A DNA stretch of 37,548 nt, taken from the NCBI GenBank assembly GCA_021777755.1, contig JAJYDE010000039.1:1-37548 (forward strand), given 5' to 3'. Under the pieces are notes generated by a model. That model saw only the letters and a list, made by a program, of their open reading frames with translations, was not told where the DNA came from and did no database searches. This DNA is from Deltaproteobacteria bacterium. Its GTDB lineage: Bacteria; Desulfobacterota; Syntrophobacteria; Syntrophobacterales; Syntrophobacteraceae. The translations under genes were made by a program, and so were the position numbers. Shown here in pieces: positions 240-16,058 of this stretch (positions are counted from its first letter, which is position 1; every line of letters begins with the position of its first letter).

Positions 240-2402
240 ATGAAAGGGACGGACTACGAGATAGTTTTTAAACCAGGATGTCTTGGGGACTACGAAACGA
301 TGCCCCTCAGGGTGGATGAGAACGGCAAGTCCTTTGTGGACCTCGAAATTTTGGGGAAACGGTGGAAACCCGGAGTCGCGCGAATTCTGGCGGAACTTAG
401 AAGGCGGGGAAGTGTGAGGGCCATTGCGCGGAGTTCGATTGTGTTCTGGAACGGTCTCGACCATCTCACCGACAGCAGATTTCATTGCACAGATTTCCCT
501 GTAAATCTTTCCGAGTTGCTTTCCGAAAACCTTCGAAAAAGTCCCGAACAGGGACTGATCGCATATCTTGATGACACTCACCGGTTTTTCAGGATGGTTT
601 TCGAGGACTGTGCGAGGCGGCACTCATTCACCTGGTCAGTGCCGGGAATATTTCTGAGTGTAGAGGAGCGTGGGGAAGATTTCACGGAAAATGTCATAAA
701 AATCGGCTCTACACTTCCGGTAAGTCCTTCCAGTCGAAGCGTGCTGAAAATCTACTGCACCAGGCCGGCGGTTCTAGAGCTGGCAACATTCAAAACCAGG
801 GTGGATTTCTCAAGCGTTGGATGCAAGAGATTGCCCCTCTCATCCCTGCTTGAATATGCCGGACCCGGTGGCCGTACTCTCAATCTAAGATACGAGGGGG
901 AAATTGAGCCGATTCCGCTGGTCGAACTTGTTGCTCCTCACACCGTGTTCGGATTCAGGGAATCATCACATGGAAATGACTACGAAATCCACCTGAGGCT
1001 CAAAGGTCCTGCCGGGGCGCTCAACATCTCCATAGAGGATATACTGACAGGACGGAAATCCTGTATGGAGCTTCGTCTGGAGAAAGGCGAGGCACGAATG
1101 TCAGGAACATTTGCCCTCGGCGGTCGTATTACCGTTATCTCAAGCGGCGAGGCCGCCTACGGGGTCTACTGCCATCTGAACGAATTGCCCCCGGGCTTCT
1201 GGCTGTTTGAAATCGCCGCCCGGATTGCCGGCCGCTGGGGGGCGCTTGCCGACAGTGACGGGAACAGCTATGCAGGCTACGTCCTGCTATCCGGGTTGGG
1301 AAGAACGGGTGCATTTGCCGATATCTGCCTGCTTGCCGAAGAACTCCAACTTCCTGCGGCGGAAGCTCTGCTGGCAGGAATACATAAGCGTTTGCTCAAT
1401 CGCTACTCATCCGAATGCTCGAATCTAGTCATTTTTCTTTTTCGCCTGTGGAACATAATGTTCAATAAACTCCGGAACATCAGTTCTGTTGAATACTTCC
1501 TTTCACTTCTTGGAGAACGCTCGTCTCAGCTTGCAACTTCGTCATGGATACCCGGTCACAGTTTGGGGGCCACCTTCCCGGAACTCTTTTGTTATCCGGG
1601 ACCCAAGTACTACCGCGTCCGCAAACGATCTGATAGCCTTATCGTTGAGTGTTTGCGGCATTGCGGTAAGTTTAACGACCCGGTCCGTGTTTTCTCGGCG
1701 GGAATAGTCGATGATGCCGTTCTGGGAGGTTTCGCCAATCCTGCTGGAATTATCGGAGGAGAATCGCCAAGAGGCTTTGACTTTACAAGGTACCTTGAGG
1801 CCATGAGAATGAGGGACCTTCCCGAAAGGTGGTCCGCTCTGAATGACGATAACTGGCAGCCAGGGTTGGGAGACTATCTTGGCCCCATGCATTACAGATA
1901 TTGCATTACCAGGTTGAAATTCACTTATACCCGTACGTTTGGCGAAAACCTGGGCAGACATGGGAAGGCTTTGACCCTTTTGAGGAAAGTAAAGACGTTC
2001 TCTTTCGCCGGATTATCCCGGCGGCACGTTCCGGAAAATGGCTGTACGGTAACCGACCTCGGACTCTTTGAAACAGAAAACGGACTCGGTCGCCTGCTTT
2101 CGGAATCCGACCAACAGCAAGCGGAAGACCTCCAGGCAATCGTGAGGTTCTTAGCGCTTTTCGCCGGGGTATGCCGCTTTGAGGCGCGCCATCCAGGTAT
2201 TCTGAAACGATTTCTCTATGAAATAAGAGAAAAAATGGAGTTTTCCGAACCTGCCGACAGAGAAAGAGATCTGAGAGGCATCCTCTCCTACCTGCTCTAT
2301 GTCGGAGAAGAGTTGTTTGCTTTCTACCTCATGCTTTCAGAATTGATTTTTGTCACCGATGAAAAAGAAGAGGGGAAGAAGTGTCCGAGAGTAATCCCAT
2401 AA
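240..2402 (+). CDS. Uncharacterised 720-aa protein, first full member of helicase/SIR2 cassette
   Basis: I do not recognise a family. Residues ~130-330 alternate hydrophobic and polar residues like stacked beta-sheet (Ig-like) domains; from ~340 onward it appears mainly helical. There is no signal peptide or membrane segment, so it is probably cytoplasmic. The 3' end overlaps the helicase start by 22 nt, implying co-translation and joint function. By position it corresponds to the large accessory proteins encoded next to DruE in Druantia systems (e.g. DruH), but I see no sequence basis for equating them. The start is doubtful: the ATG at 240 has no proper Shine-Dalgarno, the same frame is open and protein-like back to 108 with no start codon, and a GTG at 104 in another frame overlaps the upstream stop. 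A one-base frameshift near 165-172 would join GTG 104 to this frame, adding about 45 residues. Confidence 0.75.
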   Translation: MKGTDYEIVFKPGCLGDYETMPLRVDENGKSFVDLEILGKRWKPGVARILAELRRRGSVRAIARSSIVFWNGLDHLTDSRFHCTDFPVNLSELLSENLRKSPEQGLIAYLDDTHRFFRMVFEDCARRHSFTWSVPGIFLSVEERGEDFTENVIKIGSTLPVSPSSRSVLKIYCTRPAVLELATFKTRVDFSSVGCKRLPLSSLLEYAGPGGRTLNLRYEGEIEPIPLVELVAPHTVFGFRESSHGNDYEIHLRLKGPAGALNISIEDILTGRKSCMELRLEKGEARMSGTFALGGRITVISSGEAAYGVYCHLNELPPGFWLFEIAARIAGRWGALADSDGNSYAGYVLLSGLGRTGAFADICLLAEELQLPAAEALLAGIHKRLLNRYSSECSNLVIFLFRLWNIMFNKLRNISSVEYFLSLLGERSSQLATSSWIPGHSLGATFPELFCYPGPKYYRVRKRSDSLIVECLRHCGKFNDPVRVFSAGIVDDAVLGGFANPAGIIGGESPRGFDFTRYLEAMRMRDLPERWSALNDDNWQPGLGDYLGPMHYRYCITRLKFTYTRTFGENLGRHGKALTLLRKVKTFSFAGLSRRHVPENGCTVTDLGLFETENGLGRLLSESDQQQAEDLQAIVRFLALFAGVCRFEARHPGILKRFLYEIREKMEFSEPADRERDLRGILSYLLYVGEELFAFYLMLSELIFVTDEKEEGKKCPRVIP

Positions 2403-5400
2403 AACTGGCCAAAAATCTCGAAAACACACTTCGGCGCTACATACCGACCACTTTGCCGGTAAGCCGCCGCTATCCACTCCTGAGGGAGCGCTTTCTGGAA
2501 ATAGTGAAAGAGCAAAAGCTCGTAATCGGCCCCTACGTGGAAGGTCTGCCCGATTTTGAAAAAGGCGCGAGGCTAAGAGACCTCATTGAGAAACAAGGGG
2601 TCTTGCACAAGGGCCTTCTCTCGCTTCCGGAACATATTCTCGACCGTCCCCTGCATCTGCATCAACAGAAGGCGTTGGTCTCAGCATGCAGGGATGACAA
2701 AAGCCTTATTGTGGCCACAGGAACCGGCAGCGGCAAGACAGAAACGTTTCTTCTCCCCATTGCGCATCATCTGCTTGCCGATCCCAACCCCAAGGCACCG
2801 GGGGTCAGGGCCCTTCTCATCTATCCCATGAACGCTCTCGCAAATGACCAGCTCTTCTATAGAATCGCCCCGCTTTTCGGACGACAGCTGGCCGGTTACG
2901 GGATTACCTTCGGACGCTTCACATCGCAGATAAGGGCAAAAACCCCGAGAGAGGAAGAAGAGCAAAGGCTCAAGGATAATCCGAAATTGATGGAGATAAT
3001 GGGGGACGCCATTCCGGCCAACTGGCTGCTCACGCGCGAACATATGCTTGAAAACCCTCCCAAAATACTGATCACCAACTACGCGATGCTGGAGCACCTC
3101 CTGCTCCTGCCCCGAAACGAGCCTCTTTTCAGACACGATGCCCTCCGCTTCATCGTGCTTGACGAAATACACACCTACGCGGGCGCCCAGGCCACCGAGG
3201 TCGCTTTTTTGATTCGAAAGCTCAAAAACAGACTGCGGCTCGATAGAAAACTGCAGGTTTTCGGAACTAGCGCCAGCTTGGCGGCTGATCCTGGATCGGA
3301 CGAGCAGTTGCTGAAGTTTGGAACCGAACTTTTCGGAGAAGAAGTCCATGAGGTGATAAGGGGGAATCGGGAGCCTCATCACCGGCTCCGAAAAGAAACA
3401 AATCAGGGTTTTAGCCTTAACCCCGAGCAATGGGTTGAAGCGGGGAAAATTCTGGACGATTTGAGTAAACTCGAAGCCCCCGGGGCCGCGGACTGGAATG
3501 AGAGGCTCACCGATTCGCAGATGGCCTTCGCCCTTCCCGTGCTGGACGAAGGGCTGAGTTTGCCCAGGGCTTTTGAAGAAGCTTTCCACACGAATCTTGA
3601 AGTTCGCAAAACAGCCGAGGCGCTGGATAACGGCAACATTCTCGATTTCAGCCATCTCGCCCGGGTCGTGTTCGCCGGCTTCCCCGGTGAAGATTCCGCC
3701 GCCCCGGACGCTCTCGCCGCCTTGATGCACCTGGGCATGTGGGCCAGAATCTCCGAGGAGTCTTTCCCCCTTCTTCCGACCCGCCACCACATAGCGGTAA
3801 ACGGAATTGAGGGAGTCTGCGTCAGCCTGGACGCCACAAACTCTGAAGGATGGAAGGGCATACAGGCCTCGAAGAGCCATGCCAGCCCCGAGGACGGCTT
3901 ATATTACCCGCTCCTTGTGTGCAGGAGATGCGGGCAACCTTACATTGAAGGCTATTCGGACGGCGTGAAATTGCACAATTCCTTGAAGCTGATCGGTGAA
4001 ACCGGCCCGGGGGAGCGAATCACCCGCCGGGTATACTTTTTGGGAAAACCACCTAAATTCGAAATCAGAGACGAACAGGATGAGTTGGAGGATAAGGAAG
4101 CCCGGAAAGCGGTATGCGATTATGTTGACACCGCCACAGGGCAGATTTCGGGCTCCCGGTTGGAGAACAGTGTATGTCTCCACCAGGTGGAAACCAAACA
4201 GGACGAAATTGAAAGAAATGCCTACGTCCCCAAATGCAATGCCTGCGGGACCCGGGCCACCGGCGCTCAGCCCGAGGTGGTCACCAGAATGCATCCCGGT
4301 GACGAGGCGCTCGGGGCCGTGGTTGTCCAAAAGGTGCTGGAAGCTCTGCCCGGTCATGAAGACCACTATGAGCTTCGTCCTATGCAGGGGCGAAGCCTTC
4401 TGAGCTTTGCCGACAGTCGTCAGGACGCCGCTTTCTTCGCTCCCTATTTCGAACGTACCAGCGGTGATCTGGCCCTTCGGACCGCCATCTATCAGGTGAT
4501 CAAAGCTCATAAGGAGCCCCTAACCCTGGAAGACCTGACTCACATCGCTTTCAAATACATGGCCAGACTGGGAGCCCCGGTGGTCCTGGATTCCAGGGGA
4601 GAGATGATTAACAGCACTGCTCGGAAACGTGACCAGATCCTGGGAATGATCACCGCCGAATTTTGCACCCCGGGTGGCCGTCGCAATTCCCTTGAGGCCC
4701 TCGGGCTGGTCAGAGTCTTCTGCGATCACGGAAAGACCAAAAATCTGATCGGCAAATTGAGGGAAATTCTCCCCGGTGAATATCACGGCCGGGAAGAGGC
4801 CTTTATGAACATACTTCTTGAAACAGTAAGAAGGGAAAAGGCCATCTCCAAACCCGGCGATATAGACATGAACGACCCGTTTATCTGGGGGGAGACGTAT
4901 GGGAAGCACCGGGCATTTGAAAAATACCGGCTAAACGACAAGGTCAGCCATGCCTGGCTTCCTCCCGAGGGGCGCAATCAGCATAACAGAAGGACATCTT
5001 ACCTGGTCGGTCAGCTCGGATGGAGCTGGGAGCAAGCCAGAGAATTTCTCTCCAGGGTTTGGGATATAATGAGGGACTGCAAAATTCTTGTCCATCTGAG
5101 TCCGGGTTTCGGCCTGGATTCAAGTCTACTGCGGTTTGGTCCGGGGGCGGATTATAAACTTTCGGCATGTGAGACCTGCGGTCTTCTTCAGTTTGATACG
5201 ATCAACAATTTGTGCACCGCCTTTGGATGTGGAGGAAAAGTCAAACTTCTGGGGGAAAAGGAGAGAGAATCGTTCCATCAACTGAATCACTATATCTACA
5301 GCTTTACGGAAGGCAAGGCGTCCACAACCCGTGCAAAGGAGCACACCGCGGCCCTGTCCGCGGAACTCAGGCAAAATATCGAACAGGAGTTCGGTGAAAA

Positions 5401-8278
5401 GAAAATCAATCTTCTTAGCTGCACAACGACGATGGAGCTGGGGGTGGACCTGGGGGAACTGGAGGCTGTTTGCTGTTTGAACATCCCTCCCGGGATCAGC
5501 AATTATCAACAAAGGACAGGACGGGCGGGCCGAAGGGCTCAAGCCGCCCCATTTTGCGTCACAATCGCCCGCAACACCCAGTATGACCAATCCGTATTCC
5601 GGGACTTCAAAACATACCTGGGGCAGCCTGCCCCGGTCCCGAGAATCTATCTGGCGAATGTGCAGCTTTTCCAAAGGCACCAGAATTCGATTCTCCTGTC
5701 TCATTTCATGCGTGGCCGGATTACGGATTTGTCAATCAATGCGCCCGGTATCGAGGACTTGTTCGGTAAGGAGTTTGACCGGGATGCTCATGAAAAGTTC
5801 AGTGAGGGGGTGTACTCCTGGTTTGAAAGTCCCGACGGGCAGGAAGCGTTGCTCGAAGCCGAGCGGTTTGCAGACTTTCTTCCACATGATCTGAAAGAGG
5901 CGATCGCTTTGAGCGGCCCCGGTCTGAAGTCGTATTTCATCGAAAATCTGGACAGGTTTTCCGGAGAGGTTCACGAAAGATGGCAGACCTATACAACCAA
6001 AAAAGAACAGTTCAAGGCGGCCGATGAACTCACCAAAGCGGTCCACTGGGAAAACCTGCGCACCAAATACATGCGGCAATTCCTGGTTAATCAGTTTTCA
6101 GTCCTGGGGATGATTCCGACGTACAGTTTCCCCGTTCATTCGCTGAGTTTGGAGGTGACTCGCGAAATGAAAGGATGGGCCGGCTTTGGTGGAAATGAGG
6201 TCGCTTTGACCAGGGACGCCACCCTGGGACTTGGAGAGTATGCCCCGGGATGCCAGGTGGTTGCCAACGGCAGGATTTGGACCAGCGAAGGTCTCGCCTA
6301 TTACCCGCGTGATTTCATGCCCGAACAATACTACATCGCCTGCCCCGAATGTCATCACGTCGACGCGGGCCATGACAAGGAAGACCTCCCCTGGATGTGT
6401 TCCTACTGCGGAAGCACGGCGGGAAGGGGCTTGAAAAGATCATTTATCGAACCGAAGGGGTTTGTCACCTCCTACAAGAAAAGAACCGGCGACGACCCAT
6501 CCAGGACCAGGGTCAGGAGACAGTACGCTGATGAGGCCAGGCTCATTTCGCTTGCCAATAACGATCAGTTCCGGGTTTCCGATAATCCGTTTTTGAGTAA
6601 AGCCATGCTGAGGGCCCACTCTTCGGATGGAAACGGGGCACCGGGGGAAATCTTCATTGTGAACCGGGGGCCGCACGGAATGGGGTATCATCGTTGCAGA
6701 TTATGCAATTACATGACGCCGGCAAAATCAATCAAATCAATAAAGATCGACCAGCCGCACGATGAGCTTCAGGGCGACAGGAGATGCGCCAACCGCGAAC
6801 TCGCCTGGCCTATCGATCTTGCCCATGTGTTTCGCACCGATGTCTGCATCCTGAGATTCAACCGCCCGCTACCGCCGCCTGAAGGCGACCCGGGCTCGGC
6901 GGGGCTGAAAAAATACCAGGAGTCCTTTTCACGCACTCTCAGTGAGGCATTGAGATTTGCGGCATCCGAGGCTCTGGAAATTCAGGCGTCCGAGATACGG
7001 TCCACGTTCAAGTTGAATTCAAATTATATTGACGTGATCATTTATGACGCGATCTCAGGGGGCGCGGGGTACGCCTTGCGCCTTTTCGAGGCGATCACCG
7101 CCCGAAAGATTTTCGAATATGCGATTGCTCGTCTTGAATGTCCAAATGGTTGCTCGGGAGGTTGCCGCGCCTGTCTTTGCGATTATTCCAACCAGCGGGC
7201 CTGGGACATTTTCAATCGCAAGCCCGTCCTCGCCTGGCTCGAAAAGCTCGACAGGGAAAAGGCCGATCACCCGTTGGTGGCAATGGGGGCGAAACTGTGG
7301 GAAACGCCCAGTTATCAGAAGCTTGGGGAAAAGGTCGATGAGACCGGCCAGGTGCATATAGTCGCGCAGAGCCTTGTTGGTGGAACTCCGGAGGAGGGGG
7401 AGCGGACCAGGGCATGGCTGGTGGACCGGCTCAATAAGGGGTGCAAAGTAAATGTTTACCTCAAAACGCCGTTGAAAATGGATGCCAAAAAATTGCCTCC
7501 CTTTCAGCGAAGAGCGCTCGGCTACTTACGCTCTTACGTTGAGGATGGCAATTTGATAATCAGGGAGTTGTCTAACTTTACAGAAGCAGAGAAAGATCGC
7601 TCCGGGTTTCTTCGGCTTTTCGGCGCCCCGGTTGAAGGCACCGCCATCTGGCTTTCCGACTACAATGCCTCTCCTCTGCTGGAACAGATACTTCCCAACC
7701 CCGTCTACGGGATGATCGCAGACAAACAATGGGCTGGCGTCCTTTCCCGGCTTGTCGCTTCCTCCAACGAGTGTTCGACGGAAGTCTTCAAGGAAAGCGC
7801 GGAGATCAAGCGATGGGAACTCAAGTCAGGAGAAAAACGCGATTTGAAGAAATACTTTGAGCCGGTGGCCGGCGCCCATGTTGAAGAACTGCTGATTAGA
7901 GACCCCTATTGCGCCGCTGGCGAAGAAAACAGGGTTCAACTGTTCAAATTCCTAAAGTCAATACTTCAACTTGTGGATATGGTGAAGATAACCAGAATAA
8001 TATGCAAAGAGTTGCACTTCAAAGACTATAAATATGAGAGTATGGCGGACGTAAAAAAGAAACTGAATGAGGGAGCCAAGGGGGTGAACCTCGGAAAGTT
8101 CGACCCCATCGTCTATCCGTTCAAGACCCTTAAAAAAATGCACGACCGCTACGTGAACTTAAAAATTGTTGATTCGGAAGGAAGGTCCTCAAGGCATATT
8201 TTCGACCTTACCGGAGGCATTGATTTATTGATGGACGAAAAGGCGGAAACGAGAATTTATTACTTTCTCGACAAATAG
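2381..8278 (+). CDS. Giant DEAD/DEAH-type helicase with DUF1998-type Cys cluster and PLD/MIT_C-like C-terminus (DruE/DISARM-like)
   Basis: A 1965-aa SF2 helicase, probable motor of an anti-phage system. Visible motifs: Q-like region LHQQKALVSA then Walker A GTGSGKT (114-120), DEIH box (261-264), GTSASLA motif III, TTMELGVDLGELE motif V and QRTGRAGR motif VI (1044-1051). Cysteine pairs at 514/517, 619/622, 930/933 and 1321/1324 with 1340/1343 suggest several zinc knuckles. A SGGAGYALRLFEA segment followed by C1587, C1591, C1595, C1598 and C1600 is typical of DUF1998 domains, found in Druantia DruE and DISARM DrmB. The C-terminal ~120 residues carry IRDPY (1839-1843) and HDR (1921-1923) ahead of a TGGID motif, resembling MIT_C/phospholipase-D-like domains; this part is inference. 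The GTG start at 2381 has a GAAGAGGGGA ribosome site and overlaps the upstream gene. Length matches DruE-type proteins (~1800-2100 aa), but no other standard Druantia gene is recognised. Confidence 0.9.
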   Translation: MSESNPIKLAKNLENTLRRYIPTTLPVSRRYPLLRERFLEIVKEQKLVIGPYVEGLPDFEKGARLRDLIEKQGVLHKGLLSLPEHILDRPLHLHQQKALVSACRDDKSLIVATGTGSGKTETFLLPIAHHLLADPNPKAPGVRALLIYPMNALANDQLFYRIAPLFGRQLAGYGITFGRFTSQIRAKTPREEEEQRLKDNPKLMEIMGDAIPANWLLTREHMLENPPKILITNYAMLEHLLLLPRNEPLFRHDALRFIVLDEIHTYAGAQATEVAFLIRKLKNRLRLDRKLQVFGTSASLAADPGSDEQLLKFGTELFGEEVHEVIRGNREPHHRLRKETNQGFSLNPEQWVEAGKILDDLSKLEAPGAADWNERLTDSQMAFALPVLDEGLSLPRAFEEAFHTNLEVRKTAEALDNGNILDFSHLARVVFAGFPGEDSAAPDALAALMHLGMWARISEESFPLLPTRHHIAVNGIEGVCVSLDATNSEGWKGIQASKSHASPEDGLYYPLLVCRRCGQPYIEGYSDGVKLHNSLKLIGETGPGERITRRVYFLGKPPKFEIRDEQDELEDKEARKAVCDYVDTATGQISGSRLENSVCLHQVETKQDEIERNAYVPKCNACGTRATGAQPEVVTRMHPGDEALGAVVVQKVLEALPGHEDHYELRPMQGRSLLSFADSRQDAAFFAPYFERTSGDLALRTAIYQVIKAHKEPLTLEDLTHIAFKYMARLGAPVVLDSRGEMINSTARKRDQILGMITAEFCTPGGRRNSLEALGLVRVFCDHGKTKNLIGKLREILPGEYHGREEAFMNILLETVRREKAISKPGDIDMNDPFIWGETYGKHRAFEKYRLNDKVSHAWLPPEGRNQHNRRTSYLVGQLGWSWEQAREFLSRVWDIMRDCKILVHLSPGFGLDSSLLRFGPGADYKLSACETCGLLQFDTINNLCTAFGCGGKVKLLGEKERESFHQLNHYIYSFTEGKASTTRAKEHTAALSAELRQNIEQEFGEKKINLLSCTTTMELGVDLGELEAVCCLNIPPGISNYQQRTGRAGRRAQAAPFCVTIARNTQYDQSVFRDFKTYLGQPAPVPRIYLANVQLFQRHQNSILLSHFMRGRITDLSINAPGIEDLFGKEFDRDAHEKFSEGVYSWFESPDGQEALLEAERFADFLPHDLKEAIALSGPGLKSYFIENLDRFSGEVHERWQTYTTKKEQFKAADELTKAVHWENLRTKYMRQFLVNQFSVLGMIPTYSFPVHSLSLEVTREMKGWAGFGGNEVALTRDATLGLGEYAPGCQVVANGRIWTSEGLAYYPRDFMPEQYYIACPECHHVDAGHDKEDLPWMCSYCGSTAGRGLKRSFIEPKGFVTSYKKRTGDDPSRTRVRRQYADEARLISLANNDQFRVSDNPFLSKAMLRAHSSDGNGAPGEIFIVNRGPHGMGYHRCRLCNYMTPAKSIKSIKIDQPHDELQGDRRCANRELAWPIDLAHVFRTDVCILRFNRPLPPPEGDPGSAGLKKYQESFSRTLSEALRFAASEALEIQASEIRSTFKLNSNYIDVIIYDAISGGAGYALRLFEAITARKIFEYAIARLECPNGCSGGCRACLCDYSNQRAWDIFNRKPVLAWLEKLDREKADHPLVAMGAKLWETPSYQKLGEKVDETGQVHIVAQSLVGGTPEEGERTRAWLVDRLNKGCKVNVYLKTPLKMDAKKLPPFQRRALGYLRSYVEDGNLIIRELSNFTEAEKDRSGFLRLFGAPVEGTAIWLSDYNASPLLEQILPNPVYGMIADKQWAGVLSRLVASSNECSTEVFKESAEIKRWELKSGEKRDLKKYFEPVAGAHVEELLIRDPYCAAGEENRVQLFKFLKSILQLVDMVKITRIICKELHFKDYKYESMADVKKKLNEGAKGVNLGKFDPIVYPFKTLKKMHDRYVNLKIVDSEGRSSRHIFDLTGGIDLLMDEKAETRIYYFLDK

Positions 8279-8302
8279 ATCCTGCAAACAAAGGAAGAGT
8301 TG

Positions 8303-9886
8303 ATGGGGGGACATGTATTCATCATCAGGGGAGATTTGACCAGGCTCTATTGCGATGCCTGGTTACTGCCAACTGACTATAGTTTCGAAATAATGGAGCA
8401 TTGGCGCAAGGTCCCGGGTCTGGAAAAGGGGTGGACCGGCCCTGCCTCCGAGGCATGGGAGAACGGCACGTCCAGAGTGCTGAGGATTGAGGACTGGGAC
8501 CGGAACAAACCAAGACCGTGGCTTGTCCATACGGGTGGAGGGCCATTTGCGACGCCCCAGTGGCATGCCGAAGGCGTCAGGGAATTTGTTCGAACAGCCG
8601 CCCGCGATCTCAGGAATCGACAAGACGGGATCACAAAGAGGGCAAAGCCGCTCCTGGCTCTTCCTTTCCCCGGAACCGGGGCGGGCGGCGCCAGGGATCG
8701 AGCTGGCGATCTGCTCCCAATCCTGGTGAAAACGCTCCATGAGGAAAGCCTCCAAGAGGATGTGGATATCGCGTTTACCACCAATAAGGGCGGCGATTAT
8801 GCAGCTGCCATGCACGCCCGCAAATGCCTGGAAGGCTCAGGGACCTTTGCCTGGCCATCCGATCTGAGTGCGGAGTTGAAGGGGGTTGGAAAAAGTCTTG
8901 CCGACTCCATAAAAGAGGGCGGGCTTGTGCTCTTCTTAGGTTCGGGGGTGAGCGCGGGGGCAGGTTTGCCAACATGGGACGGTCTGCTCGAAAAGCTGGC
9001 GATAAAGGCCGGTGTTTTCAATTGCGAAGGAGCGGACAGCGAGAGGACTCGCCAAGATTTCAAACGGCTCAATTACCTCGACCAGGCACACCTGATCTCC
9101 GACCTTTTTGTGGAAATGAAACAGGATATAGGGCAAGAAATTGCGAAGCAATTCAGCGCTCACACCCATTACGCTCTGGCCCACGCTATTTTGGCGGCCA
9201 TGCAGGTCAACGAGATAATCACCACCAACTACGACACGCTTTTTGAAGAAGCCTCCGCTGTGGCGGGGATGACCCCGCCCCGTGTTCTTCCCTACAACCC
9301 GACACTGGCCGGCAACCGTTGGCTGCTCAAACTGCACGGATGCGTCACGCGCCCCAAAGACATCGTGCTTACGCGCTCCGATTATCTGCGCTATGATGAC
9401 AAACGGGCGGCGCTCAAGGGCATAGTGCAAGCCATGCTGATGACCAGGCACATGCTCTTCGTCGGTTTTTCCCTCAGGGACGAAAACTTCGAAAAAATCA
9501 TTGATGACGTCCGCAAAGCAATAAGAGGCGATCTCACAGAAAATCCTCAAGATGAAGAAGTGCCCTTTACGACAACCCTCATGCCGTCCACCAACTCCTT
9601 TCTCCAGAAACTCTGGCGCAAGGATGTCAACTGGGTGAACTTCGAGCGCTCGGGGGGGTTGTCTGAATCCGCACGGCTGCAGGAGATTTTCCTGGACTAT
9701 CTGGCGTCCATTTCGACATCCTACACGGCCCACCTGATAGACCCACGCTACGATGGGGTGCTGTCGGAAGGCGAAAAGGCGCTTCGAGAAGCGCTCTTGG
9801 AACTGGTAGACAATGTGGGGGAAGAAGTAAAAAACACGCCCGCCTGGGGAGAGGTCGAAGCCCTGTTCAGGCGACTCGGGGGCTGA
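8303..9886 (+). CDS. Macro-like domain fused to SIR2 NAD+-consuming domain
   Basis: A 527-aa soluble protein. Residues ~1-180 look like a divergent macro domain: GDLTRLYCDAWLLPTD near the N-terminus, then LPFPGTGAGG, as in ADP-ribose-binding folds. Residues ~200-450 are a SIR2_2-type domain: glycine loop GSGVSAG (213-219), TTNYD with N309 and D311, LKLHG with the probable catalytic H345, and VGFSLRDENF. SIR2 domains of this type deplete NAD+ in many anti-phage systems, and a macro partner could bind or sense ADP-ribose products. That functional link is inference. ATG 8303 is preferred over TTG 8300 because AAGGAAGAG lies 5-6 nt upstream of it. The gene follows the helicase stop by 24 nt and ends the cassette, so it is the likely toxic effector triggered by the helicase complex. 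Confidence 0.88.
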   Translation: MGGHVFIIRGDLTRLYCDAWLLPTDYSFEIMEHWRKVPGLEKGWTGPASEAWENGTSRVLRIEDWDRNKPRPWLVHTGGGPFATPQWHAEGVREFVRTAARDLRNRQDGITKRAKPLLALPFPGTGAGGARDRAGDLLPILVKTLHEESLQEDVDIAFTTNKGGDYAAAMHARKCLEGSGTFAWPSDLSAELKGVGKSLADSIKEGGLVLFLGSGVSAGAGLPTWDGLLEKLAIKAGVFNCEGADSERTRQDFKRLNYLDQAHLISDLFVEMKQDIGQEIAKQFSAHTHYALAHAILAAMQVNEIITTNYDTLFEEASAVAGMTPPRVLPYNPTLAGNRWLLKLHGCVTRPKDIVLTRSDYLRYDDKRAALKGIVQAMLMTRHMLFVGFSLRDENFEKIIDDVRKAIRGDLTENPQDEEVPFTTTLMPSTNSFLQKLWRKDVNWVNFERSGGLSESARLQEIFLDYLASISTSYTAHLIDPRYDGVLSEGEKALREALLELVDNVGEEVKNTPAWGEVEALFRRLGG

Positions 9887-9960
9887 CGGGGCATTTTTTG
9901 CCTCAAGCCCGTATAGCTCCAGCCAGGAGCGCGCCTCCACGGGTATTTTTCAACCCCGGT

Positions 9961-10133
9961 CTACTCGTTCCCGCTGATGCGCCGGAGTTCTCCCCAAACA
10001 TCGTGGTAGATGTCGGCCCGCTTTACGCCCTGTTCATCGACTACTGAATTCTTGAAATTGGAGTAGTCGATGTGCAGATGGACTCGGGCCCCGAAAAAGC
10101 TTTGAAGTTGCTTATCTCATATCGTGTTATCAT
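9961..10133 (-). pseudogene. Degraded gene remnant, possibly from an AAA/SMC-like ATPase
   Basis: On the minus strand an ATG at 10133 opens MITRYEISNFKAF, which resembles the first beta-strand of RecF/OLD/AAA_15-type ATPases. The frame is then lost at a run of five T (10094-10098). The neighbouring frame continues convincingly with HIDYSNFKNSVVDEQGVKRA and WGELRRISGNE to a TAG at 9961-9963. That second segment has no ATG, GTG or TTG of its own. The remnant is ~57 aa, far too short for an ATPase and without a Walker A, so a frameshift plus internal deletion is the simplest reading. It sits in the 319-nt gap after the SIR2 gene, which otherwise contains nothing recognisable. Family assignment is tentative. 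Confidence 0.4.
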
Positions 10134-10205
10134 CCAGGGCTCCATTTGTTATTTTGAGTGCGGCATGCCTGTAACCGGATTGTCTATGAGGCAATCTACG
10201 TGCCA

Positions 10206-11711
10206 TCAGATATTCACGCCATATTTCGAGAGCCAATTCGTTAGGGTCTGATAACTTGGAAGCCCAACGAGTTCCGCCGCCCGGGTCTTGTTGCCGTGAG
10301 CCTCCTTCATGGCGCGGATCAGGTAATGCCTGGCGACATCCGAAATGACCTGTTGCAGGTCCAGGCCGTTTCCCAGGGGTTTGTCCAGAATATCTGAATC
10401 GCACTCGAAAGCAACCGGAAGCAGCGCGTCTCGAATATCGTCTCCGTCAATGATCTCATCTTTGGCCCAAATAGCGGCGCGCCGCAAGGTATTGAGCAGT
10501 TCGCGCACATTGCCCGGCCAAGGGTGCGAAAGCAGGAGGTTCCTTGCCGAAATAGAAAGTTGTTTATGTATATAGCCGGGTTCCGTTTCGCTCTCCCGGT
10601 TCACCTGGCCGAGGAGGGAGTCGACCAGCAGCCCGAGGTCCCCGGACCGCTCCCGTAGCGGCGGGATCTGCAGGATGGCGACCGCAAGCCTGTAGAACAA
10701 ATCAGACCTGAACCGGCCGGAGGCCGCTTCCTGGAGCAGGTTGCGATTCGTTGCTGCGATGATCCGTGCTTCCGTCCTGATCGGCTTTGTAGAACCAACC
10801 CGGGTAATTTCGTTTTCCTGTAGGGCCCGAAGCAGCTTGACCTGTGCGTGGAGCGGCAGCTCCCCGATTTCGTCCAGGAATAGAGTCCCTTTCCCGGCTG
10901 CTTCGAAATAGCCGGCCCGCGATTTTTCCGCCCCCGTAAACGCCCCCTTCTCATGGCCGAAGAGTTCCGATTCCACCAGTTCGGTCGAGATCGCCCCGCA
11001 GTTTACCGCAATGAAGGGTTCGTCCTTCCTCGTGCTCGACCTGTGAATTGCGCGGGCGAGCAACTCCTTGCCGGTTCCCGATTCCCCTTCGATGAGGACC
11101 GGAACCGAGCGGGGCGCCACCCGACGGGCTTTTTCGAGAAGCCGAGTCATAACATCGCTTCGGCAGATAATATCCGAGAACTCCGGGGCTTCCGGAGGGG
11201 CTGCAAGACTGTATCTGAGCAGTTCGCGGTCGGGTTTCGCCAAAAGGTCGGGGATGAACTCGGCGGAAATATCGAATGGGACGGAAGCCACCTTCACCCC
11301 ATACTGGAGAGAAGATTCGATCAGCGTCGCCGGGAACCGCGTCTTTGCCAAAATGACCCAGACCGCAGCCATGGCAGGGGTGCCGGGGCTGAGGTGGAAA
11401 TAAAGCTCTATCGCCTCGCCGTTTCGGCCCATGACGTCGAGGACGGCTCTTACCGCCGCCGGGTAGATCTCACCGAACTGAGTCGGCCCGGAGAGCTTTT
11501 CTGGGTAGACTAAAATTTTTGCCCGGGTTCGTGCCCGAAGCCAGACCAGATAATGTCCAGTCGCATCTTCCGGGTAGTTGGTGAGAAGGGCTATTTCATC
11601 GTATTCGGTGTGTGTTGCGGCCTGGCCAATCGGCCCCAGACCGACCTTCTCTTCTTCGGTCGGGGCTTTTAAGTCCGTATTCCCAATCCAGCAGACGAGC
11701 ACCTTTTTCAA
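10206..11711 (-). CDS. Sigma-54-dependent activator with CARF/RtcR-like sensor domain
   Basis: A 501-aa bacterial enhancer-binding protein. Residues ~1-150 resemble the CARF-type N-terminus of RtcR: a [11 protein letters not shown] first strand and an HLSPGTPAM loop after a helical stretch. CARF domains bind cyclic oligonucleotides or cyclic-phosphate RNA ends. The AAA+ domain follows with Walker A GESGTGK (209-215), the sigma-54 contact loop GAFTGA, Walker [12 protein letters not shown] and an arginine-finger region, then a Fis-type helix-turn-helix at the C-terminus ([11 protein letters not shown]). The long open frame starts at GTG 11855, but its first ~48 residues are atypical. TTG 11711 is chosen because AAGGA lies 8 nt upstream and it begins right at the CARF strand; GTG 11702 is an alternative. 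No rtcA or rtcB is present; the divergent ARPP-1/DUF2130 genes behind a sigma-54 promoter are the likely target. Confidence 0.85.
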
Positions 11712-11856: not shown

Positions 11857-11873
11857 TTGGCACGGGACTTGAT
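11857..11873 (+). promoter_or_regulatory. Sigma-54 (-24/-12) promoter for the ARPP-1 gene
   Basis: The stretch TTGGCACGGGACTTGAT matches the sigma-54 consensus TTGGCACG-N4-TTGCW except that the -12 GC is GA. It lies about 80 nt before the ATG of the ARPP-1-like gene and points toward it. The adjacent divergent gene encodes a sigma-54 activator, which makes this the expected target. The -12 mismatch may lower basal binding or be real variation. Confidence 0.65.
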
Positions 11874-11953: not shown

Positions 11954-12955
11954 ATGAAAATCAAAAATCTTCTGCCGGAGGGAATGACCCTTGGTGACAC
12001 GACAGCTGTTCACGGACTCGGCATTGTCGAGTTGATCTCTCCGGACCGGACGGAATTGCCCGCGATCAGCATGCTCGATGAAGCGATGGAAAAAGGAGAA
12101 GTCCGCGTCGGCGAAGTTTCCGAGGGAGGCCAGGTCCCATACCTTGCGGTCGAAAATACCGGCGGAAATCCTGTCCTAATACTCGAGGGCGAGGAGCTTG
12201 TAGGCGGCAAACAGAACCGGATAGTAAATGCGACCATCCTCGTCCTTGCTGGCAGCATCATCAAAATACCCGTTTCGTGTGTGGAATCGGGAAGGTGGGA
12301 CAACCGCCGGTATGATTTCGACTCAGGGAAAGCGATCTTCCGCGCCCGTTCGAGGGCCGTTCAGAAAGAGAGTGTCACTTTGAGTCTCCGTGAGCGCGGG
12401 ACCTTCCAAAGCGACCAGGGTGCAGTCTGGAACGAAGTTGGTGAATCGCTGAGCGATCTCGGCATTAACTCTGAGACCTCCGATTTCCGGGCCGGACGGG
12501 AAAGGGTTGCACACAGGATAGAGGAATTCGTTTCCGCCCTCCGACCTTCAGAGAGGCAGGTCGGGGCGGTCTTCCTTTCACGGGATGGTATCCTCGGGTG
12601 CGAGCTTCTTTCCACACCGGAGCTTTTTGGTCGTTGCATTGAAAAAATCGTAAGGAGTTTCGCCTTCGAGGTGCTCACAATGCCCGACTACGTTCAGCCA
12701 GTTGGAGATGGCGCCGCAAAGTGGTGGGAAGCTGTCCTTGATTCCGAAGTCACAACTCACAGTTCTCCAGGCGCCGGTCAGGATGTTCGCCTCCAAAATC
12801 CTGAACTTGTCGGCTCGGGATTGCAGTTGGACAATTCATTGATCCACCTGTCCTGCTTTCCGGCCATGGGGGGCAGGAAAAACGGACGTCGTTCGCCCGG
12901 TCGCCGTGCAACGGTTAGTGAGCGCCGCAGGAGGATGAGCAACAATACGGAGTAA
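11954..12955 (+). CDS. ARPP-1 (DUF6569)-type domain protein
   Basis: A 333-aa cytoplasmic protein. Its N-terminal two-thirds match my recollection of the ARPP-1/DUF6569 family (ARG/rhodanese/phosphatase-associated): the segment ILEGEELVGGKQNRIVNATI and the following VSCVESGRW are characteristic. The biochemical function is not established; the family has been linked by genome context to phosphate or ADP-ribose chemistry and to conflict systems. The C-terminal ~20 residues are Arg-rich (RKNGRRSPGRR) and may bind nucleic acid. AAGGAGG four to five bases before the ATG is a strong ribosome site. It is first in a probable two-gene unit with the DUF2130 gene and is divergent from the CARF-sigma54 activator, with a sigma-54 promoter upstream. 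Confidence 0.75.
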   Translation: MKIKNLLPEGMTLGDTTAVHGLGIVELISPDRTELPAISMLDEAMEKGEVRVGEVSEGGQVPYLAVENTGGNPVLILEGEELVGGKQNRIVNATILVLAGSIIKIPVSCVESGRWDNRRYDFDSGKAIFRARSRAVQKESVTLSLRERGTFQSDQGAVWNEVGESLSDLGINSETSDFRAGRERVAHRIEEFVSALRPSERQVGAVFLSRDGILGCELLSTPELFGRCIEKIVRSFAFEVLTMPDYVQPVGDGAAKWWEAVLDSEVTTHSSPGAGQDVRLQNPELVGSGLQLDNSLIHLSCFPAMGGRKNGRRSPGRRATVSERRRRMSNNTE

Positions 12956-13067: not shown

Positions 13068-14384
13068 ATGCCACAAAAAATTATCCTGTCATCGGAAGAA
13101 AAAATCGTATGCCCGAACTGCCAGCACAAATTCGCACTGGAAGACGGGATTACCCGGCAAACAATCGAACGGTATGAACAGGAGTTCGAGACGGCTCTGC
13201 AAGAGCGCTCGGATAGACTTCGCCAGGAACTCGAGAAGGAGGCGGAGCGAAAGCTCACCAAAACTTTTACGTCGCAAATCGATGTCCTCAAGGAACAGCT
13301 GAGTGGTAGCCGGGAATCTTTGGCCGCAATGAAGTCCCGTTTCGAAACGGTCCAACAGGAAGTGAAAGCCAATGCCCTTGCCGATTTTGAGTTGGAGAAA
13401 AAATTACTGAAAGCGCAACTTACCGAAAAGGACACCAAGCTACAAGAGTTCCGCGAGCAGGAACTGCTTCTCCGCCAGGAGAAAGCAAGACTCGAAGAAA
13501 TTCGCAGCGGAATGGAATTGGAATTGCGGCGCAAGGTCGATGAGGCGAGCAAGAATATCGAAGAGCAAATCCGCGCCAGCGAAGGAGTCCGGTTTAGACT
13601 CAAAGAGGCCGAGTATCAGAAAAAAATTGAGGATGCTCAAAAGGCCAACGAAGATTTACGGCGCAAGTTGGAACAGGGGTCTCAGCAACTCCAGGGCGAG
13701 GTGCTGGAACTGGAACTCGAAACCAATCTGAAAGCCGCTTTCCCCCTCGACGAGGTCGAAGCGGTCCGCAAGGGGGCAAGAGGCGCAGATGTTATGCAGA
13801 CGGTCATGACCCGGACCGGACAGGTTTGTGGCAAGATCGTCTGGGAAGCTAAAAGGGCCGAGAACTGGTCGAACGCATGGGTGCAAAAACTCAAGGACGA
13901 TCAGCAGGAAGCCGGGGCGGAACTGGCTGTTCTGGTTACCACGGTCATGCCCAGGCAGACGACCGAACCCTTCTGCATGATCGATGACATCTGGGTGGTC
14001 AACACCTGCGCCGCCCGGCCGATGGCAGAAACGCTGCGCATCATACTCCTTGAGGCCAACAAAAATAAATTGATGAGCCTCAACAAGAGCGAAAAGATGG
14101 AGGCGCTGTACCACTACCTGTGCAGCCCCCAGTTTGCTCAGAAGGTGCGAGTCGTAGTTGAAGCGTTTGCGGGGATGAAGCGTGACCTCGATTCCGAAAA
14201 GGCCGGCATGGCTCGCCTTTGGAAAAAACGAGAGCAGCAGATCCAGCGAGTCACTCTCAACATGATGGGAATGTGCGGCGAGCTGCAGGCCATAGCGGAA
14301 GAGTCGTTACCCGAGCTCGACTCCATCGCACCCTTACCTGGACAGGATAGTGAGGCCGGAACTGAAGCCGTCGCGGATTTTTAA
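13068..14384 (+). CDS. DUF2130 coiled-coil protein, possible PD-(D/E)xK-type nuclease
   Basis: A 438-aa protein. The N-terminus has a single CPNCQHKF half zinc knuckle (C15, C18), followed by a long charged coiled coil (~30-210) and a globular C-terminal DUF2130 domain (~215-420). In that domain D241 precedes a strand containing E260-x-K262 (IVWEAKRAENW), the pattern of restriction-endonuclease-like active sites; nuclease activity is inference. Architecture resembles RmuC-like or SMC-nuclease proteins. GGGAGG 8 nt upstream supports ATG 13068 over the longer frame from 12975, whose extra 31 residues look non-coding. It follows the ARPP-1 gene by 112 nt with no obvious terminator between, so co-expression under the sigma-54 promoter is likely. 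Confidence 0.8.
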   Translation: MPQKIILSSEEKIVCPNCQHKFALEDGITRQTIERYEQEFETALQERSDRLRQELEKEAERKLTKTFTSQIDVLKEQLSGSRESLAAMKSRFETVQQEVKANALADFELEKKLLKAQLTEKDTKLQEFREQELLLRQEKARLEEIRSGMELELRRKVDEASKNIEEQIRASEGVRFRLKEAEYQKKIEDAQKANEDLRRKLEQGSQQLQGEVLELELETNLKAAFPLDEVEAVRKGARGADVMQTVMTRTGQVCGKIVWEAKRAENWSNAWVQKLKDDQQEAGAELAVLVTTVMPRQTTEPFCMIDDIWVVNTCAARPMAETLRIILLEANKNKLMSLNKSEKMEALYHYLCSPQFAQKVRVVVEAFAGMKRDLDSEKAGMARLWKKREQQIQRVTLNMMGMCGELQAIAEESLPELDSIAPLPGQDSEAGTEAVADF

Positions 14385-14669: not shown

Positions 14670-16058
14670 ATGGCATACGTAAGAAAACGGGGCAGGCAAC
14701 TTTTGATCGTCCAGGGAACTCGGGACTCGCAGACAGGCAAGGTGGGCCAGGAAATTCTTTTTACGATTTACTCAAAAGCCGAGGCCATCCAGATTTTGGG
14801 ACAAAATAGCGGCGGCGCCGGGCTGGATTTCCGCAGCTTACTTGAGCACCAATTTCCTGACATCAAATTCGGGTGGCCCAAAATAATGGAAGGTATCAAA
14901 GCCGATCTCCATGTGCTGCCCGATCTCTACGAGTACAAAGAGGCCCGGCTTCAATCGGGATTCCGCAAGGACCTCTGCTCGTTTGCAAAGCAGCTCATGC
15001 TTGCCGACCCGCAGGATTTAATTTCTTCCGCCGGCCTGATCCAGGACCACTCGGTGGAACTCGACTACATCGCCGATCTGATCCGCTGGCGCCTGAAGCT
15101 TTGCAAGCAAGAGCGAAACGAGTGGAATACCGATAATCCTTTCTATTGGCGTTTCGCCACTCAAACAAGTCAGGTGCCGCCGGATACAGAAGAGCACGTA
15201 GCGAGCTTTTATGAAAAGGGCGAGTACGAACGGGCAGCCGTTCTCTTTCGATTCCTGATCGACTGTTTTGACGATTACGCTGAAGGGTATGACTACCTGG
15301 GGCTGATTTCGCTTGAAACCGGGAAATTAGATGAGGCAATCGAAAACTTCAGGCAAACAATGGAAGTGGGCCGTAAATATTTTCCCAAGAGGATGGCAAA
15401 AAGCAGGTATTGGACCGATCTTGCAACTCGCTCCTACATGCGGGGTATGAGGAATTTGGCTTTTGCACTGAATAGGGCGGGCCATTTCGACGAGGCCCTG
15501 GATTATTGCGAACAGCTTGAGAAGGAATGCGGGGATGAATTTGCCCCGGCCTCTCGGCGGGTTGCAATCTATCTCAACACCAACCGGTGGAGGAAAGCGG
15601 CCGATTATGCGGTCAGACTTCAAAACATCAATGCCTCTGAGAGTCTTTTGGCCGGGTTTGCACTTTACGAGCTTGGGAGCCTGCAGGATGCCACGGTCTG
15701 CTTTCTTCACGGGGCGCTCAACTTTCCACGGGCGGCCAAAATCCTGACGGGGATTAGGACAAATCGACCAGGAAACCATGAGGAAGCTCGTGATAACAAC
15801 GCAGGGCTTGATATCCGGGCGGACATTCACAAATACCTGTCCGGCCCTGGTCGAAGAGCGGTTCGTTTCTTTAAGAGCTTTCTTGAAAGACCCGAGGCAG
15901 ACGGACTGATCAGCAAGATTGAAGATGTCAGAAAGAGATGGGCTGAGGAACGCCGCACTGACAACCGGGAAGCGAGCGATCTGATGAGGCAAATGAGGAC
16001 TCTTGAGTTCGCTCGGCAGGAGGCCGAAAAGCTGCCGGAATCGGCCGCTGTCCGGTGA
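14670..16058 (+). CDS. Tetratricopeptide-repeat protein, function unknown
   Basis: A 462-aa soluble protein with no signal peptide. Helical repeats are clear in the middle, e.g. FDDYAEGYDYLGLISLETGK followed by LDEAIENFRQTME (~212-245), and a second unit with RNLAFALNRAGHFDEALDYC (~270-300). TPRs mediate protein-protein contacts. The N-terminal ~150 residues are mixed and unfamiliar; the C-terminus is charged and helical. The start has GAAGGGGGAA 5-6 nt upstream. It has its own promoter and an overlapping inverted repeat, so it is probably transcribed separately from the DUF2130 gene. Nothing in it names a pathway. Confidence 0.8.
   Translation: MAYVRKRGRQLLIVQGTRDSQTGKVGQEILFTIYSKAEAIQILGQNSGGAGLDFRSLLEHQFPDIKFGWPKIMEGIKADLHVLPDLYEYKEARLQSGFRKDLCSFAKQLMLADPQDLISSAGLIQDHSVELDYIADLIRWRLKLCKQERNEWNTDNPFYWRFATQTSQVPPDTEEHVASFYEKGEYERAAVLFRFLIDCFDDYAEGYDYLGLISLETGKLDEAIENFRQTMEVGRKYFPKRMAKSRYWTDLATRSYMRGMRNLAFALNRAGHFDEALDYCEQLEKECGDEFAPASRRVAIYLNTNRWRKAADYAVRLQNINASESLLAGFALYELGSLQDATVCFLHGALNFPRAAKILTGIRTNRPGNHEEARDNNAGLDIRADIHKYLSGPGRRAVRFFKSFLERPEADGLISKIEDVRKRWAEERRTDNREASDLMRQMRTLEFARQEAEKLPESAAVR

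Follow-up and report, generated by a model that had tools for sequence, protein, structure and literature searches.

DUF2130 (PF09903) proteins as predicted PD-(D/E)xK nucleases of defence-type loci, in one deltaproteobacterium beside a CARF sigma-54 activator

McrC, a member of the McrBC restriction system, is a PD-(D/E)xK protein of solved structure (PDB 6hz4). Can1 and Can2 carry a CARF domain fused to the nuclease, as described in the available text of PMC11090510. ShdA of the Shield system is presented, in the available part of PMC10270631, as a membrane-bound RmuC-type PD-(D/E)xK protein that breaks down DNA and protects against phages. CoCoNuT systems are built on a McrB-type GTPase and a McrC homologue, and the accessible text of PMC11090510 places coiled coils, nucleases, RtcR homologues and Druantia in their neighbourhoods. 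The CARF domain of RtcR itself has been discussed as a sensor of RNA ends (PMC11090510, PMC7790460 and PMC9650030, in the parts available).

The DUF2130 protein considered here is encoded in a stretch of 37,548 nucleotides from a deltaproteobacterium (contig JAJYDE010000039.1; the window; Table 1). McrC is the best structural match of its core; unlike McrBC, neither the protein nor its four scanned neighbours contains a McrB-like GTPase by Pfam or PADLOC, and unlike McrC it bears its own CPxC motif and coil. The core also superposes on Can2, Card1 and Cdn1, with which the locus shares a link to CARF sensing. Whereas in Can1 and Can2 CARF and nuclease are one polypeptide, here the CARF domain lies on a separate sigma-54 activator, which is proposed to control transcription. 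With RmuC and ShdA the protein shares the predicted PD-(D/E)xK fold but no RmuC sequence match, and instead of being membrane-bound like ShdA it begins with CPxC. A DruE-like gene stands in the window, as Druantia does near CoCoNuTs, but coil and nuclease are here joined in one protein without a GTPase. Membership of the CoCoNuTs was rejected, as no tandem of McrB-type GTPase and McrC homologue was found in DUF2130 and its four neighbours by Pfam and PADLOC.

Table 1. Features of the DUF2130 locus, in window coordinates
Feature	Coordinates	Strand	Basis
RtcR_PspF2-type CARF-AAA-HTH sigma-54 activator	10206..11711	-	PADLOC PDLC01995, E 1.5e-195
Second sigma-54-like site, immediately after activator gene	10190..10205	-	1 mismatch
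Sigma-54-like site TGGCAC-N5-TTGAT, 5' of ARPP-1	11858..11873	+	1 mismatch
ARPP-1 (PF20208) gene	11954..12955	+	Pfam, E 6e-79
DUF2130 (PF09903) gene, 438 aa, predicted PD-(D/E)xK nuclease	13068..14384	+	Pfam, fold, conservation
CPNC, residues 15-18, CPxC half zinc knuckle	13110..13121	+	C15 in 98/100 domains, C18 in 99/100
Long helix, predicted coiled coil, residues 29-200	13152..13667	+	AlphaFold2 model, one unbroken helix
Predicted PD-(D/E)xK core, residues 212-312, alpha-beta-beta-beta-alpha-beta plus hairpin	13701..14003	+	Model and VIA-align
E214, acidic, first core helix	13707..13709	+	Kept in 100/100 domains
D241, candidate catalytic Asp	13788..13790	+	Kept in 100/100 domains
E260-A-K262, ExK motif, end of third core strand (253-262)	13845..13853	+	E and K each in 100/100 domains
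C-terminal long-helix pair, residues 313-413, with invariant R324, F356, E377, W385 and R388	14004..14306	+	Model and alignment

The DUF2130 gene starts at an ATG preceded by the ribosome-binding site GGGAGG, and the residue numbering of the original prediction agrees with this start. PF09903, described in Pfam merely as uncharacterized, spans residues 178-411 (E 1.1e-62; 212 bits against a curated cut-off of 26.7), and PHROGs and NCBIfam gave no meaningful match. A search of titles and abstracts for DUF2130, COG4487 and PF09903 found none on function, and an earlier assignment in other papers or databases is possible. The long coil and the zinc half-knuckle that had been read from the sequence are both real: the coil appears as a single helix in the AlphaFold2 model, and both cysteines are nearly invariant.

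The original prediction had singled out D241 followed by E260-x-K262 as a restriction-like active site, and conservation in a DUF2130 alignment bears directly on it. The alignment held 105 rows (104 loci and the window), reduced to 100 distinct domains by removing five rows with identical domains; 80 of the loci, going by record titles, span Deltaproteobacteria, Nitrospirae, Phycisphaerae, Chloroflexi, Bacteroidetes, Bradyrhizobium, Patescibacteria and others. All three residues proved invariant in it, and they are identical in the 25 proteins of the phylum set. So too are E214, D228, G210, G236, G255, R324, F356, E377, W385 and R388 across the 100 domains; E214 is a fourth invariant residue, acidic, which had been overlooked. 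An independent second set from another phylum keeps E...D...[E/D]xK in 28 of 30 loci, the exceptions being L261, which a contig end truncates, and L264, which is degenerate in the motif region. Here the motif was re-checked by pattern, because MAFFT had shifted the aspartate by one column in many rows (a one-residue gap). The set contains a distant subfamily with Pfam matches of about 300 bits and the motif GDY...FEMKN. In two of the 30 loci (L260 and L263) the aligned motif is DxK, the variation behind the superfamily's name; L262 was scored DxK by pattern, yet reads ESK in the alignment.

One objection is that, in a charged protein, a D...ExK pattern could have arisen by coincidence. [D/E]xK does occur six times in this one (positions 10, 60, 98, 110, 122 and 260), and the motif alone is therefore weak. 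Only position 260 follows a hydrophobic run, however; the codons of E260 (13845-13847) and K262 (13851-13853) both fall within hydrophobic KIVWEAKR. Exactly these residues are invariant, which is more than chance would give, and together with the strand setting and the predicted fold this already refutes a coincidence, which is next to impossible.

The core (residues 204-345) was modelled with AlphaFold2 from 85 aligned sequences, with a pLDDT of 92 and a pTM of 0.86. Its elements (helix 212-224, strands 229-232, 242-247 and 253-262, helix 270-282 and strand 286-291) follow the order alpha-beta-beta-beta-alpha-beta, with D241 just ahead of the second strand and E260-x-K262 closing the third, the standard PD-(D/E)xK placement. 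VIA-align was run on the Foldseek candidates. Among its best matches are McrC (Z 10.2, rmsd 3.1, 112 aligned residues, 8% identity), Can2 (Z 9.2, rmsd 3.2, 115 aligned) and Cdn1 (Z 9.0, rmsd 3.2, 117 aligned), the Can2 and Cdn1 entries together covering Z 7.8-9.2. BsaWI (8.7), Hjc (8.5), FokI (7.6), EndoMS (7.5) and Card1 (6.7) also match, where a Z under 8 may reflect only a common arrangement. Tk-TIP26 (Z 10.1) and VC1899 (9.8) likewise score high, which counts against the assignment. Most of the top VIA-align matches are PD-(D/E)xK nucleases. Foldseek itself returned no match at E <= 0.001, the best being a SPARDA chain (E 3.5e-3); its list includes SPARDA subunits, MspJI, Bax1, Hjc ST1444 and DdmD, with Rep15 and other non-nucleases among the top rows.

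The case for a nuclease fold rests on the top VIA-align rows, their shared PD-(D/E)xK identity and the conserved residues, and DUF2130 very probably has that fold. The arrangement called canonical in the original prediction is borne out by invariance, strand placement and superposition on known nucleases; in the predicted structure the residues stand at the expected PD-(D/E)xK positions, as judged by secondary-structure placement. The restriction-like D...ExK pattern was correctly seen and, if anything, undersold, and its reading as a nuclease is largely upheld. What results is the assignment of a further family to a known superfamily, new at the family level, and not a new kind of enzyme.

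RmuC and Mrr, the folds named at the outset, were compared by sequence. Membership of RmuC by sequence was rejected: Pfam gives no RmuC (PF02646) match up to E 1, and the hhalign alignment with a profile built from 17 of 18 listed RmuC loci is meaningless. The source genome encodes a separate RmuC elsewhere. For Mrr, hhalign pairs D241 and the ExK with the D and QxK of that family, at a score of 18.6 against 20.75 for the best of 40 column shuffles, and Pfam finds no Mrr_cat (PF04471) match. The pairing of residues is attractive, and kinship to Mrr by sequence is possible; since the score is no better than that of some shuffles, the link is taken to be structural. Among solved structures, sequence searches returned only chance coiled-coil rows for the whole protein and none for the core profile. 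A search of 99 genomes for Card1_endonuc (PF09002) gave three matches, none in the source genome.

The family's genomic neighbours were compared in 80 DUF2130 loci, adjacent genes being set against genes at least five places off (125 genes drawn at random from 148 adjacent ones, and 148 from 440 distant ones). AAA_21 occurs in 13/125 adjacent genes against at most 1/148 distant ones (Fisher p 2e-4, taken against 1, with related loci counted as independent). AAA_21 leads the adjacent Pfam families with AAA_15 (11) and SMC_N (9), the AAA_13 kind occurring too. No such ATPase family reaches 2/148 among distant genes, where families beyond the 25 listed have at most one member. PADLOC models of Old, GajA and AriA match 8-9 adjacent genes, and no PADLOC model matches more than two distant genes, although the distant set also holds some defence genes (Cas9, Csx1 and a type III restriction enzyme).

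An SNF2 helicase and an N6/N4 methylase accompany DUF2130 in seven loci (L058, L059, L065, L069, L073, L078 and L092), several of which also have an ATPase. A recurrent operon reads SNF2 helicase - (Schlafen AlbA_2) - DUF2130 - (AAA/OLD ATPase) - N6/N4 methylase; the SNF2-DUF2130-methylase operon is possibly an undescribed restriction-like system. The gene-class map of the loci was built with seed proteins drawn from these very loci and serves only as a description. In the close relative L032, DUF2130 is flanked by a ResIII helicase with a methylase and by an AAA_13-type ATPase; on a Chryseobacterium plasmid it adjoins type I M and S genes and a WYL gene, and on a Bradyrhizobium plasmid it lies near AbiE, AAA and helicase genes. 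Four close relatives (L028, L031, L035 and L036) have ordinary metabolic or transport neighbours, with no defence gene among the genes seen, and a Mesorhizobium plasmid copy has no defence neighbour among those seen either. Overall, DUF2130 tends to sit among bacterial anti-virus genes.

DUF2130 is patchily distributed, being found in 26/297 genomes of the phylum sample and 33/398 of another phylum (about 8-9%). Copies lie on 43 plasmid records, conjugative plasmids included, and in seven Helicobacter heilmannii prophage records. In one of these prophages the homologue (L231, 6016-7284) adjoins ParA and lies near Mu-like genes.

In the window, a gap of 112 bp separates ARPP-1 from the DUF2130 gene that follows it on the plus strand, and the two genes are probably co-transcribed. 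The activator is divergent from ARPP-1, its start codon uncertain (TTG near 11711). As in RtcR-type CARF-sigma-54 regulons, a CARF-AAA-HTH activator thus stands beside a sigma-54-like site. The site 5' of ARPP-1 is without the -12 GC (it reads GA), and when the 245-bp region was shuffled 2000 times, 9 shuffles contained one equally good. Sigma-54 and RtcB are both encoded in the source genome.

In a wider search of 297 genomes, every genome matches RtcR_PspF2 through the sigma-54 ATPase domain; for this reason only matches above 600 bits, found at 12 places in 11 genomes, were counted as true activators. With the window included, the 7,200 bp flanking these activators contain 11 sigma-54-like sites of no more than one mismatch, against four in the other 149,630 bp, and at least one lies within 300 bp at 7 of the 11 other activator places. 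The RtcR_PspF2 activators of the phylum (L158-L168) often have a sigma-54-like site 5-22 bp past their own reading frame, and the genes downstream of these sites vary. Such a site is a handy anchor for locating CARF-controlled operons. In the window, the stretch 9886-10205 (minus strand) holds the corresponding site and, after it, a short ATPase-like N-terminus (MITRYEISNFKAF) that is soon interrupted by stops, whereas the ATPase-like reading frame of L158, with MITAIEIENFKAIG, is full-length. The N-terminus in the window seems to be what is left of an effector gene that was lost.

Other loci hold parts of the arrangement. In two other genomes (L166 and L167), ARPP-1 and an RtcR_PspF2 activator diverge from an intergenic region with a near-perfect sigma-54 site, and no DUF2130 gene lies alongside. 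Among the 80 context loci, one other DUF2130 gene adjoins a CARF activator (L068) and one adjoins ARPP-1 (L053, as divergent neighbours). At L068 the same activator type (PADLOC E 5.4e-159) is divergent to the DUF2130 gene itself. A sigma-54-like site with two mismatches lies 45 bp before the DUF2130 start there, and it is weak, with 284 of 2000 shuffles equally good, or 48 of 2000 when GG and GC are required. Co-occurrence of DUF2130 and ARPP-1 is not beyond chance (5/297 genomes observed, about 4.3 expected). In the nearest relative in the phylum (L024/L027, genome G272), the stretch read contains neither ARPP-1 nor the activator, so the three genes do not always stand together.

Beyond the activator stands a Druantia DruE-like helicase (PADLOC E 1.4e-174), followed by a SIR2-domain gene with ThsA-like matches (8300-9886, plus strand); the two occupy 2363-9886 on the plus strand, and with them the window looks like a defence region. 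A 764-residue reading frame before the helicase (108-2399) has no Pfam or PADLOC match. Downstream of DUF2130 lies a TPR-repeat gene (14670-16058, plus strand), whose homologue was found beside no other DUF2130 gene except as a weak match in L044. An Rfam scan of the window gave no match.

The reading preferred here, with a probability of roughly two in three, is that DUF2130 is a metal-dependent PD-(D/E)xK nuclease of anti-phage or anti-plasmid loci, in this genome under CARF/sigma-54 control. It is the best explanation of the computed fold, conservation and gene context, from which we infer activity, substrate, dimer, signal and co-transcription. Two or more subunits would be joined through the CPxC half-knuckle and the coiled coil of about 170 residues, a zinc site possibly forming from two CPxC motifs. 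The metals would be bound by E214, D241, E260 and K262, which would carry out the cleavage of nucleic acid, with double-stranded DNA as the most likely substrate. DUF2130 would act as the cutting component, its frequent partner being an SMC/OLD-like ATPase or else a helicase together with a DNA methylase. The CARF domain of the activator may sense a signal of nucleic-acid damage, which by analogy with RtcR would be RNA ends bearing a 2',3'-cyclic phosphate, and the activator may then drive the sigma-54 promoter ahead of ARPP-1 and DUF2130. The gene pair is thus probably switched on by a stress-sensing regulator. The nuclease would be made on demand and would cut invading DNA or, in the extreme case, host DNA.

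That DUF2130 is an active nuclease at all is quite likely, and a scaffold is the alternative. Such a nuclease-fold protein would bridge or bind DNA, holding an ATPase, without cutting; it would suit the very long coil, a CPxC motif conserved nearly as strongly as the core and the SMC-like ATPases with which DUF2130 is often paired. Proteins of nuclease folds that do not cut have usually lost their catalytic residues, however, and the invariance of all four catalytic-type residues in 100/100 domains makes a scaffold quite improbable. Between the two effector roles originally put forward, DNA-bridging and DNA-degrading, the intact catalytic set favours degrading. The main substrate of DUF2130 is likely to be DNA. 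A nuclease that cuts or processes RNA, in concert with the RNA-damage sensor and RtcB, would agree with the adjoining RtcR-like activator, with the RtcB gene of the genome and with Can2, a close structural match reported in the available text of PMC11090510 to cut both DNA and RNA. It is nevertheless unlikely: the structural matches are mostly DNA enzymes, many relatives adjoin DNA methylases, SNF2 or ResIII helicases or OLD-like ATPases, and most DUF2130 loci are without an RtcR-type neighbour.

DUF2130 might also, like RmuC, have a housekeeping role in recombination or repair, its defence setting incidental. RmuC contains a coil, and some close DUF2130 relatives have metabolic neighbours. 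Coil and PD-(D/E)xK domain are thus combined in RmuC too (for the fold, the available text of PMC10270631). Against this stand the patchy spread in both phyla, the copies on plasmids and prophages, the genome's own RmuC and the lack of a Pfam or profile match to that family, which leave an RmuC-like role very improbable.

Within the preferred reading of a defence nuclease, the coupling of CARF sensing to nuclease transcription is possible; it is the more novel part, with few cases behind it. In its fullest form, which we regard as tentative and rather doubtful, the locus would be a split CARF-nuclease, with the CARF domain on the sigma-54 activator and a Can2/McrC-like nuclease on a separate, zinc-clasped coiled-coil protein, so that RNA damage would lead to transcription of a DNA-cutting effector and not to allostery. 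If so, DUF2130 would be a widespread and unrecognised exchangeable effector, shared with helicase-methylase and OLD/SMC-ATPase operons. The predicted PD-(D/E)xK placement, the four named residues and the defence context give an uncharacterised family a testable function, and a possible route from the sensing of RNA damage to the cutting of DNA is suggested.
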